DNA of 38,928 nt, from NCBI GenBank assembly GCA_001804065.1, contig MHFG01000040.1, forward strand, positions 1-38,928, in the 5' to 3' direction. The notes below the pieces were generated by a model, which had not been told where the DNA came from, made no database searches, and was given only the letters and a program-made list of their open reading frames with translations. The translations under genes were made by a program, and so were the position numbers. Position 1 is the stretch's first letter; every line of letters begins with the position of its first letter. Of the stretch, positions 3,141-18,924 are shown piece after piece. Source of the stretch: Omnitrophica bacterium RIFCSPHIGHO2_02_FULL_46_20. GTDB taxonomy: Bacteria; Omnitrophota; Gorgyraeia; 2-01-FULL-45-10.

Positions 3141-4144
3141 ATGACAACTTCTCTTTGTAATACCAAACTAACCGTATTACCTTTTGATTTTTTGATCAGC
3201 TCGATTGCTCTTTTAAGAGCCATATAACGGGTAGAGTTCCCGCTTATTTCTACTATAAGATCATCCTGCTTCACGCCCTCTCCGGCCGCGGGGCTATCCT
3301 CTTTAACCGCGGATACCGTAAGGCCGTCGAATCGCATGTTTAAGGTTATCCCTACAAGGTCGTTAGTATTCGATAATAAATTTCTATTCTCATTTATCCT
3401 GATGTCAACCTTGCGGCTTATCGTGCATTTGGTCTCCAAGGATGTCTTTTCCAGGATGGTTTCCGCAACCTCGCTTAATGTAAGATACCCGACGAGCCTG
3501 CCCCAGACCGCTATCAATACATCGCCCGGCCTGATCCCGGCCTCATGCGCCGGAGAACCTGTCCCGACGCTGTCGATCTCCGTGACGCCGTCTTTTAACT
3601 TAAGCGCGAGGCCTGCCGTGTCCCGCAATTTCGCTATATCGCTTTTGAGCTTTTCCTCTTCGTTTCTGACGGCTGTTTCCGGTTTCGCGCCGAATTGCTC
3701 AAATTCGTTGTGGCGCTTTACAGCCTCTTCTTTTTGCGCCATGTCTTTTTTAAACATGTAGCCCTGCAGGAATACAATGCCGTCCTTCGCCTGTTTTGAA
3801 TTCGGGTTCAATTTAAACGCCTTGTCGTAATAGATGAACGCCTTTGTAAGATCATCCCTGTCTCTGGCTTGTTCGGCAAGCTTGACAAGGTTCTGTTCTT
3901 CGGTATCATAATATAATTCCTTTACGTCTGTTTTCATTATCGTCTGCTCGCCGTCTACCGTAGAAAATATCACCCTATCCTTGTAATCCTCGACCACGAT
4001 ACCCTTCAATTCTTTATTATCCCTGGTATAAATGGTATCGGCTATAGAGCCGCGGGACACAAGCTGCAAGCCATAAGCTGTAAAAAAAATAATAAGTATT
4101 GTTCGCTTCATCTTATACCTCAACAGCTTTTTTTGCCTCTTCAT
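3119..4144 (-). CDS. Secreted or periplasmic TPR + double PDZ domain protein
   Basis: N-terminal hydrophobic segment, TPR-like AFIYYDKAFKLNPNSKQA, PDZ-like GSPAHEAGIRPGDVLIAVWG and DSPAAGEGVKQDDLIVEISG. Confidence 0.8.
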   Translation of the reverse strand: MKRQKKLLRYKMKRTILIIFFTAYGLQLVSRGSIADTIYTRDNKELKGIVVEDYKDRVIFSTVDGEQTIMKTDVKELYYDTEEQNLVKLAEQARDRDDLTKAFIYYDKAFKLNPNSKQAKDGIVFLQGYMFKKDMAQKEEAVKRHNEFEQFGAKPETAVRNEEEKLKSDIAKLRDTAGLALKLKDGVTEIDSVGTGSPAHEAGIRPGDVLIAVWGRLVGYLTLSEVAETILEKTSLETKCTISRKVDIRINENRNLLSNTNDLVGITLNMRFDGLTVSAVKEDSPAAGEGVKQDDLIVEISGNSTRYMALKRAIELIKKSKGNTVSLVLQREVVMWGKQGG

Positions 4145-5402
4145 AAACTCTTTTAAGCGGCACTTTTTTTGCCCTGGCTATACGAGCGCATTCTTCGTAT
4201 TCAGGCGCTACGGTCAGGATATTATCCGGCCCAGTGCTTAATTTTACCTTGATAGCGCCATATTGTGTATTAACTTTTACTATTTTTCTATCGAGCTTGA
4301 ACCTGTTAGATTCATGGTACCTTATTCCTATGGATGTCGTTTCGCTAAATATTATCGAGCACATCTCCTCCAATTTTGCCTCGTCGCATAGCACCGTTAG
4401 TTTAAAGGCCGGCCTTGCTTTCTTCATCTGGATAGACTCTGTGTAGGCGTCTAACGCGCCTTCTTTGAATAATTTTTCTAAAGTGTATTCGAAATTCTGC
4501 GGATTCATGTCGTCAATATTCGTTTCTATGATAAGTATTCTGTCTTCCTTAAAAGCGCGTTTCCGCTCGCCTATTATAACTCTCAGCATGTTCGGTATTT
4601 CGTTAAGTTCTTTCGCGCCTGCGCCGTAGCCTATATCTGATACCTTCATTTGCGGCATTTCACCGAAACCTTTTGACAGGGCATTCAATATGCCGGCGCC
4701 TGTCGGAGTGACTAACTCTGCCTCGATATCCGATATCCTTATTGGCGCGCCTTTGAGCAGCTCGAGACTTGCCGGACTGGGCGTTGGCAATGCCCCGCCC
4801 CTTGTATTGATAATGGTTCTGCCAAAATTAATAGGAGACGAATAAATCTTGTCTATGCCGAGTTCATCAACCGCTATCGCCATGCCGACTATATCGATTA
4901 TAGAATCAATGTCGCCAAGCTCATCAAGAAAAATCTGCCCTGCGGGCATAGGCTTTTGGTAGATTTTTCTTGATCCTGACCCCGCTTTGGCGGGGGAAGG
5001 ATCTAATATAGGCAACCGAATATAATTTCCCTTGCCATCGAGATGGAGGTCTTTCTTGTCTTGCGCGCCGTGAATCTTGCCCTCTACCCTGCCTATCGCG
5101 TTGAATATATTTTTAGCCGTTTCTTTCACCCTATTATTTAATGAACTTTCATCTATGAGTTTTAATATTTCATTAAGCGATCTATGCGCGTGTTTATCTT
5201 GGCATCCCTTTACCAGGCAGTCGAATTTTGTCCCTACAAGCTCCCCGCGTCTGACCTTGCTTCTCTTGAGTTCGTATCCTTTTAGATTTAATTTTTTCAG
5301 TTCTTTGGACAATACTGCCATATCAAGGCCGGCATCGAGCAATGCGCCCAGGGCCATGTCGCCCGCTATGCCGCTGAAACAATCAAAATAGGCTATTCTC
5401 AC
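4113..5402 (-). CDS. larC: LarC, nickel-pincer cofactor biosynthesis protein, with an internal insertion
   Basis: MRIAYFDCFSGIAGDMALGALLDAG, DIDSIIDIVGMAIAVDELGIDKIYSSPINFG, ETNIDDMNPQNFEYTLEKLFKEGALDAY. Confidence 0.93.
   Translation of the reverse strand: MRIAYFDCFSGIAGDMALGALLDAGLDMAVLSKELKKLNLKGYELKRSKVRRGELVGTKFDCLVKGCQDKHAHRSLNEILKLIDESSLNNRVKETAKNIFNAIGRVEGKIHGAQDKKDLHLDGKGNYIRLPILDPSPAKAGSGSRKIYQKPMPAGQIFLDELGDIDSIIDIVGMAIAVDELGIDKIYSSPINFGRTIINTRGGALPTPSPASLELLKGAPIRISDIEAELVTPTGAGILNALSKGFGEMPQMKVSDIGYGAGAKELNEIPNMLRVIIGERKRAFKEDRILIIETNIDDMNPQNFEYTLEKLFKEGALDAYTESIQMKKARPAFKLTVLCDEAKLEEMCSIIFSETTSIGIRYHESNRFKLDRKIVKVNTQYGAIKVKLSTGPDNILTVAPEYEECARIARAKKVPLKRVYEEAKKAVEV
4923..5003. 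repeat. Pair of hairpin repeats inside larC
   Basis: ATCAAGAAAAATCT 4923-4936 / AGATTTTTCTTGAT 4961-4974; GATCCtgaCCCCGCtttgGCGGGGgaaGGATC 4972-5003. Confidence 0.85.
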
Positions 5403-5426: not shown

Positions 5427-5478
5427 TGGCGTAACTTGCGGGGGCGTTGCTGAAGCAACTACCCCGCAAGTTACGCCA
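5427..5478. repeat. Long perfect hairpin between larB and larC
   Basis: TGGCGTAACTTGCGGGG 5427-5443 / CCCCGCAAGTTACGCCA 5462-5478, inner GTTGCT/AGCAAC. Confidence 0.9.
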
Positions 5479-5540
5479 ATAGTTGAGACCTGTCCCCTTG
5501 GGACCTGACCCCAATCAAAAAGAGAAACTCCCCCGAGGGG

Positions 5541-6281
5541 TCAATTATTTATCATCGACGCGAAATACGCCGCGCCGAAACCATTGTCGATATTTACAAC
5601 CGCCACGCCAGGCGAACAGGAATTCATCATAGTGAGCAGCGGCGCTATTCCTGAGAAAGAAGCGCCGTAACCAACGCTTGTCGGCACTGCTATGACGGGC
5701 TTCGATACAAGGCCGCTGACTACGCTCGCTAACGCGCCATCCATACCGGCTATCACTATGATAACGCTCGCCTTCTCTAAACTATCTTTCTTGTCCAAAA
5801 CCCTATGCAGGCCCGCGACGCCTACGTCGTAAAGAGCCTCTACTTTATTGCCCATCAATTCCAGCGTAACTCTCGCTTCTTCCGCAACCGGCATATCCGC
5901 TGTCCCCGCCGTCACTATCAGAACTATTCCTTTTTTAGGGACAGCCAGTTTTTTTCTAAGATATATTATATTTGCCTTTTCTTCGAATACAGCCTTCGGA
6001 TAGATTTTTTTTAATTTTGAGCAGACTTTCTTATCGGTTCGCGTAATCAGCAATGTTCCGTCATGCGAGACTATTTTTTTGGCGATACTTATTATCTGCT
6101 CGGCAGTCTTGCCCTTGCCGAATATGACCTCCGGGAAACCCCGCCTCAAGGTTCTATGATGATCGACTTTCGCGAATCCAAGGTCCCTATAAGGTAATTC
6201 TTTTAATAGCTTAAGCGCCCTATTCAAAGAGATCCGCCCTGCCTTCACGCCCTTTAACATCCCCTGTATTCTTTCAGACAT
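5541..6281 (-). CDS. larB: LarB, nickel-pincer cofactor biosynthesis (PurE-like)
   Basis: FAKVDHHRTLRRGFPEVIFGKGKTAEQI, GTADMPVAEEARVTLELMGNKVEALYDVGVAGLHR, VPTSVGYGASFSGIAPLLTMMNSCSPGVAVVNIDNGFGAA. Confidence 0.95.
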   Translation of the reverse strand: MSERIQGMLKGVKAGRISLNRALKLLKELPYRDLGFAKVDHHRTLRRGFPEVIFGKGKTAEQIISIAKKIVSHDGTLLITRTDKKVCSKLKKIYPKAVFEEKANIIYLRKKLAVPKKGIVLIVTAGTADMPVAEEARVTLELMGNKVEALYDVGVAGLHRVLDKKDSLEKASVIIVIAGMDGALASVVSGLVSKPVIAVPTSVGYGASFSGIAPLLTMMNSCSPGVAVVNIDNGFGAAYFASMINN

Positions 6282-14565: not shown

Positions 14566-14757
14566 CCATGGAAAATTCGAGGGGTGACACTGCTATAGCC
14601 TTTTGGTGAATGGGCGAGAGGGGACTATCGGCTAAAAGACTTGCTACCTATGATCTATGGACAAGCTACTAAAGCTAAAATTGGATGAACACTGCCACCC
14701 TCGAGCCCTAAAAACAAAAGGCTGTAGCAGTGGCAGGACCCCTCGAATTTTCAATGG
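14566..14757. repeat. About 190-bp intergenic element with long terminal inverted repeats
   Basis: GAAAATTCGAGGGGT 14571-14585 / ACCCCTCGAATTTTC 14738-14752, then ACTGCTataGCCTTTT / AAAAGGCtgtAGCAGT. Confidence 0.8.
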
Positions 14758-18461: not shown

Positions 18462-18689
18462 AAATTCATATTATTATAACATAAGGCGCGTATCTCTTCA
18501 ATCAAGTATCTCTCTCTCAACACGGAGCGCTATCGCGAAGCGCATAGCCGGGACTTTTGCGGCTCACCGTAAATTTTTACGGGTGACGCTGGATAAAGCC
18601 TTTTTCTTATGGGGGCACTATGGCGCGGTGGTAACGTATGCCGCCAACTAATATCGCTGTGCATTTTGCCGCGCTTATCGATGGTGGAG

Positions 18690-18856
18690 CTTGCGGGGCG
18701 AGTTGCTGAAGCGGCGTTGAAAATTTTGACACATTATGGCGATTTAGAAAAGAATTTTAAATTCCTGAAAGAAGTTAAAATTCTGTCAAAATTTTTCCGA
18801 ATAAATTGGCATGCCCAATGCCAATTTATGTCCGCGGAGGCAACTCGCCCCGCAAG
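18690..18856. repeat. Nested multi-hairpin intergenic element
   Basis: CTTGCGGGGCGAGTTGC 18690-18706 / 18840-18856; AAAATTTTGACA / TGTCAAAATTTT; AGAATTTTAA / TTAAAATTCT; ATAAATTGGCAT 18801-18812 / ATGCCAATTTAT 18818-18829. Confidence 0.85.
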
Positions 18857-18924
18857 TTTCACCTATCTCGCGGATTGCGCTATGCCTCGGCTCATTGATG
18901 CTTCGGCAGGCTCAGCATCAACCC

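Follow-up and report, generated by a model that had tools for sequence, protein, structure and literature searches.

The larC gene carried by the window, that is the whole 38,928-nucleotide stretch of DNA analysed here (contig MHFG01000040.1 of Omnitrophica bacterium RIFCSPHIGHO2_02_FULL_46_20), very probably contains a short non-autonomous mobile palindromic element, MITE-like and resembling the Rickettsia palindromic elements (RPE) in behaviour, which belongs to a family scattered in one class of Omnitrophota and is translated as a loop of 38 residues. We propose that the element would have inserted into larC at a linker site encoding Leu-Asp (CTtGAT) and that the cell would translate it as an unstructured 38-residue loop; three properties would make the insertion tolerable: the element starts with CTT-GAT, a single sense frame of it is free of stops, and its length is a multiple of three at a place that leaves room for a longer loop. 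When the element lies outside genes, its terminator-like right hairpin and the terminal CTTGACA would stand between the transcript coming from upstream and a promoter that takes its -35 box from the element end. Mobilisation in trans, production of a working LarC and termination of transcription by the hairpin are inferences of ours. The features concerned are as follows:

4113..5402, minus strand: larC, encoding the nickel pincer cofactor biosynthesis protein LarC, with LarC1 and LarC2 in a single ORF of 429 aa (Pfam, NCBIfam and open ORF)
5541..6281, minus strand: larB, the adjoining Lar cofactor gene, in which no insert is seen (NCBIfam LarB 2.2e-89)
about 4925..5038, minus strand: the inserted element, 114 nt or 38 codons, from LarC comparison, its ends uncertain by a few bases
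5004..5042, minus strand: left arm of the element, 39 nt, sequence CTCGATGGCAAGGGAAATTATATTCGGTTGCCTATATTA, family form CTTGATAGCAtAGGAAATTATAT..., aligned with copies on contigs C82, C8, C84, C44, C76 and C15 and in genome G047
4972..5003, minus strand: hairpin B, GATCCTTCCCCCGCCAAAGCGGGGTCAGGATC, with variants class-wide
4923..4974, minus strand: hairpin C, TCAAGAAAAATCT...AGATTTTTCTTGA, with arms at 4923-4936 and 4961-4974, forming the right end of the element, which is conserved in other copies
4936..4948, minus strand: intrinsic-terminator-like core TGCCCGCAGGGCA followed by GATTTTTCTT, in the sense direction of larC (terminator scan)

The host gene is recognised by Pfam as Ni_insertion (1.8e-131), NCBIfam scores both the LarC1 and LarC2 domains far above their cut-offs, and the nearest named relatives of the protein are from Candidatus Omnitrophota MAGs. 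LarC matches were found in 31 other genomes; most are broken into two pieces, typically covering residues 1-121 and 159-429, and next to nothing separates the pieces. In an alignment with 53 other LarC rows from Omnitrophota and other phyla (about 46 distinct sequences, as some genomes are in both collections), the 38 extra codons are present in none, and the insert is thus not conserved in LarC of distant taxa. Together, the two-piece matches and the alignment define an insert of 38 codons and 114 nt, encoding GKGNYIRLPILDPSPAKAGSGSRKIYQKPMPAGQIFL plus one Asp and including the stretch GNYIRLPILDPSPAK. A first, sequence-only reading of this DNA had noticed about 38 extra residues, which the LarC comparison turns into exactly 38, and had placed the element at 4923-5015; both hairpins do lie within that interval, but the extra DNA is larger, because the 39-nt left arm, not singled out earlier, also belongs to it. 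The exact ends cannot be fixed to within a few bases, since CTCGAT or CTTGAT flanks both sides, and homology to other copies spans 4924-5042. The empty larC site is deduced from other genera, none of the same genus being available for this gene.

The insert sits at Leu-Asp (CTtGAT), in the linker that follows the helix with the conserved E-x3-H at its end and precedes the conserved (H/D)E-x-G motif, and nothing native appears to have been lost there. Near-invariant residues stand on both sides (E107 and H111 before; E161, G163 and D170 after), and at the insert an Asp stands in place of the His found in most LarC proteins. This position and this replacement point to a possible effect on LarC, the activity of which may be reduced. 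An AlphaFold2 model based on 19 LarC sequences has a mean pLDDT of 81 and a mostly confident core; residues 114-160 have pLDDT below 50 and no secondary structure, one helix ending at 110 and the next starting at 165. These values suggest that the insert is most likely an unstructured loop. The same surroundings could also be read as those of a larC gene turning into a pseudogene, in which the element would have landed recently, LarC would be inactive or crippled and the open frame would be due to luck and recency; besides the near-invariant neighbours and the lost His, the divergence of the larC copy by 8% from its nearest relative has to be counted here. We consider this unlikely, as there is no other lesion in 429 codons, as both LarC domains score so far above cut-off, and as like insertions keep an open frame in several diverged species (in a TonB-like gene) and in uvrA, as described below.

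The element itself consists, as had been read from the letters, of two consecutive hairpins in an ORF that stays open across both of them: an arm ATCAAGAAAAATCT at 4923-4936 has its complement at 4961-4974, and the second hairpin, GATCCtgaCCCCGCtttgGCGGGGgaaGGATC, occupies 4972-5003, the GAT at 4972-4974 being common to both. Members of the family are built from the left arm CTTGATAGcAtAGGAAATTATAT and hairpin C (TCAAGAAAAATCTgcc...ggcAGATTTTTCTTGA), with hairpin B (GATCCTTC-variable stem-TCAGGATC) as an optional part between them, and their outer ends are given as CTTGATAG...CTTGAC; hairpin B is a separable module, since the copies on contigs C76 and C15 have the left arm and hairpin C alone. 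Changes in one arm can be matched in its partner, as with TCAAGTAAAATC and ATTTTACTTGA in the copy at C82:34776. The RNA of the larC strand folds with -45.8 kcal/mol, compared with a mean of -30.4 for shuffled sequences (z -4.4; none of 200 shuffles as good). RNAalifold returned no common pairs on a 10-copy alignment, because hairpin B is variable or missing, and the search model was therefore made sequence-only. The outer ends are CTTGA in direct orientation and the inverted complementarity is internal, so that the terminal inverted repeats expected of a MITE are absent. An Rfam search over the region had no match at the element and yielded only weak, sub-threshold microRNA or sRNA matches to a neighbouring hairpin (5427-5478).

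Pattern, BLAST and model searches, which may yield an incomplete census, were used to collect copies. In the home genome, a draft of 92 contigs, BLAST of a 136-nt region recovered a full 115-nt copy with 92% identity (C82:11078-11192, E 3.8e-42) and some eight further copies, full or partial, that lie outside genes; the home-genome copies lie on contigs C8, C82, C78, C44, C76, C84 and C15, and a model built from ten copies gave the same set. The hairpin-B pattern occurs at four places of this genome with at most one mismatch, and its reversed control at none. Recognisable copies are present in 25 of 246 genomes of the class, many of them in family f20, and within the window's own family this 246-genome search picked out the window genome alone. 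The hairpins are thus not confined to larC, and the idea that a palindromic element had inserted in frame is supported by a dispersed repeat with related copies in frame in three unrelated genes. An ordinary lengthening of a LarC loop, or an artefact of assembly in a genome so fragmented, is on these grounds hardly credible, as the DNA is a dispersed repeat of which other genes and genomes hold independent copies in frame, and as frame and homology are kept on both sides of the join.

Two further observations were made in the home genome. Two predicted proteins have C-terminal tails that consist of partial copies, ...LDPSPAARRYIHRGGIRIKSRPH and ...SRKIRPAGREALK (C26:24782-24851, locus L134, and C76:921-950, locus L131). 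A sister element, composed of hairpin B and CAATTTTGCTTCGCAAAATTG, is found at seven places (C91, C11, two on C76, C77, C39 and C68; L198-L204, L159) and is followed by GGAGG, mostly right before a start codon (e.g. on C77), which makes ribosome-binding sites a second kind of landing place.

Four in-frame cases are known in the class, in larC, in uvrA, in a gene with a TonB C-terminal domain and in a gene for a HydB/NuoF-like subunit. The uvrA and TonB-like inserts occur in one genus, of which 12 genomes were searched. In genome G044, the uvrA insert LDNIGNHGTKDPSAYRPQDQEKSSKISAKGEIFLGK lies inside the UvrA interaction domain and splits the Pfam match into two stretches; G218 has a diverged copy of the element, so that the site is filled in two of the ten genus members with sequence. 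Six members of the same genus (G134, G226, G209, G099, G197 and G247) show the empty site, VISLDEKIKLDKFKKH, also given as LDEKIKLDKFKKH. The uvrA genes of G119 (L236) and G264 (L238) carry a different hairpin-like insert, of 24-28 codons, in the same loop, so that a single UvrA loop has taken up two unrelated inserts within one genus. The TonB-like gene has the insert LESVGSYIAEVPSAYRSQDQEKSIRNFRPKKIFLEN in G226, G218 and G099 and lacks the element in seven other genus members and in all other genera checked. The HydB/NuoF-like subunit of G252 has exactly 47 extra residues between DAIS and GEKKKP when compared with the solved HydB 7q4w; they sit between two 4Fe-4S motifs, nothing native appears lost, and the inserted DNA recurs at 93% identity at another place of G252 and at 88% in G185. 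About six native residues are missing or replaced in uvrA and roughly nineteen in the TonB-like gene, so that either insertion or later trimming removed DNA and the event is not always a clean addition. Weak peptide-profile hits in other long ORFs (G381, CTP-synthase-like; G119, LysM-like; G242, G090 and G254) were judged on inspection to be chance or unrelated matches.

The left arm of the family, CTT GAT AGC ATA GGA AAT TAT, encodes Leu-Asp-Ser-Ile-Gly-Asn-Tyr in one frame; the two remaining frames are interrupted by TAG or TGA. This LD-x-x-G-N-Y frame is the one used in larC, uvrA and the TonB-like gene; HydB uses a different one, and its copy is without the CTTGAT start. Of five non-genic home-genome copies tested, four are free of stops in the LD frame and have 1-4 stops in each of the other sense frames; stops in the LD frame are present in the home-genome copy on C76 and often in copies of other genomes. 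The net additions are all stop-free multiples of three (larC +114 nt, HydB +141, uvrA +81, TonB-like +45). This use of frame and these lengths favour plain translation over splicing or bypass by the ribosome. That the hairpin segment stays untranslated, being removed from the mRNA or skipped by the ribosome, would suit the strong hairpins in the coding strand and has a likeness in the bypassing hairpins that occur in some yeast mitochondria; we nevertheless hold it to be very improbable, as skipped DNA would have no need of staying in frame, while the four genic additions do so and non-genic copies have other lengths and often stops. A dN/dS estimate for the TonB-like insert, made on 34 codons from 3 species, carries too much noise to be proof of selection.

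In copies outside genes, the right hairpin is similar to an intrinsic terminator. Among 28 non-genic right ends, 20 continue the terminal CTTGA with C and 14 with CA, and a -10-like hexamer (at least 5 of 6 positions of TATAAT) stands exactly 17 nt further on in nine, compared with three or fewer at any other spacer; in 2000 shuffles at most 4 such hexamers fell at this spacing and none reached the observed 9. The 17-nt spacing indicates that the element end CTTGA(CA) serves as a putative -35 box, which the element may either bring along or have landed in. Two home-genome copies (C8:2858-2989 and C15:1452-1512) lie directly upstream of CIRCE-like heat-shock regions (groES-groEL and hrcA, respectively; CIRCE was recognised by eye), with the element end at the -35 position. 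This location of the right hairpin at transcription boundaries, together with a stem and T-run resembling a terminator on the sense strand of larC, might suggest that the larC copy has been domesticated as a regulatory hairpin, a sense-strand terminator tuning LarC output by translation. We find this improbable, since the element is in larC of the window genome only, with no conservation that would point to regulatory selection, and since a translating ribosome should normally mask the terminator.

As regards movement, a cognate transposase was not found among the three Y1 transposase genes of the home genome, none of which is flanked by the element; an origin from a RAYT was rejected, as the palindromes beside these three genes, placed like those of RAYT genes, are other sequences (GGGGACAGACACC, GGTGACAGTCACC and GGGGTCAGGTCCC). 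CTTGA stands at both ends of the element, and the empty sites of uvrA and the TonB-like gene, where native codons are missing from filled copies, contain or resemble CTTGA at the left. The repeated CTTGA fits either a target-site duplication or an element end. Together with the left TTGAT, the subterminal hairpins and an inner TCAAG, which could pair with either element end, it recalls by analogy the single-strand transposition of the IS200/IS605 type; short-homology repair would also fit, given that uvrA and the TonB-like gene have had some of their native codons replaced.

Other palindromes are present in the window. A 26-nt palindrome between larC and larB (GGGGTCAGGTCCCAAGGGGACAGGTC, 5487-5512, minus strand) recurs without a mismatch upstream of a RAYT-type Y1 transposase gene on contig C37 (L123), and the genome therefore has at least one REP/RAYT pair. 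Also between larC and larB, a near-perfect hairpin with 25-bp arms (5427-5478) has CTTGCGGGG..GTTGC in common with two inverted 24-nt arms that lie 133 nt apart (18683-18863); these two probably represent another palindromic repeat family. Finally, 20-nt inverted arms CCATGGAAAATTCGAGGGGT, 152 nt apart (14566-14757), lie in a stretch without a long ORF and are MITE-like.

Protein-coding palindromes have so far been regarded mainly as a peculiarity of Rickettsia that goes with reduced intracellular genomes. With elements behaving in this way in four unrelated genes from uncultured Omnitrophota, and with filled and empty sites within one genus, there is a second system for dating and comparing insertion, tolerance and loss, and the two different inserts in one UvrA loop allow one to ask whether tolerance rests on the loop or on the element. 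We put forward tentatively, and with less than even confidence, that a single Omnitrophota family has ends suited to two landing places, providing a terminator and a restored -35 box between genes and, inside genes, leading through CTTGA (Leu-Asp/Glu) into a single stop-free frame, so that insertion would be survivable in either; protein-coding palindromes would then have arisen a second time, independently, and would still be segregating within a genus. A literature search of partial coverage found no earlier description of such elements in Omnitrophota.

Among known systems, REP/BIME sequences with their RAYT (PMC2817692) share palindromes dispersed outside genes, and the home genome has its three Y1 genes, but the palindromes beside these differ from the element. 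ISDra2, of the IS200/IS605 type, inserts 3' to the target 5'-TTGAT (PMC2806898); the Omnitrophota element likewise has TTGAT as left flank in most copies and subterminal hairpins, although no gene with ends matching it was found. Correia/NEMIS elements of Neisseria are small dispersed palindromes, both intergenic and in ORFs, with 24 bp terminal inverted repeats and a TA duplication (PMC2229807), whereas the ends described here are CTTGA direct repeats. ERIC/RU-1 and other small mobile repeats of enterobacteria are MITE-like and have open frames that fuse in frame to genes (PMC2759123, PMC2229807); their terminal inverted repeats and TA duplication are not seen in the Omnitrophota element. According to the reviews, ERIC/RU-1, Correia and Coxiella elements are looser parallels beside the RPEs (Ogata et al. 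2000, 2002), which are the outstanding case of in-frame palindromes: hairpin-forming elements of 100-150 nt, in and outside genes, found in frame in unrelated conserved proteins, several of which have the reading frame in common, tolerated there as inserted peptides and with an unknown mobilising enzyme (PMC10969869, PMC2229807). The Omnitrophota family differs in its host, in its two-hairpin and left-arm modules, in its terminator-like end with a -35 box and in the far fewer genic copies found so far; it is not filed as RPE because it comes from another phylum and has its own architecture, and it is likened to them by behaviour. The Rickettsia parallel drawn in the sequence-only reading is borne out in this sense of working alike, not of membership: the element has a similar size (114 nt) and long stem-loops, its copies lie inside and outside genes, the inserted peptide would be tolerated, and it stands in frame in unrelated genes, three of the four (larC, uvrA and the TonB-like gene) sharing one frame and HydB using another.
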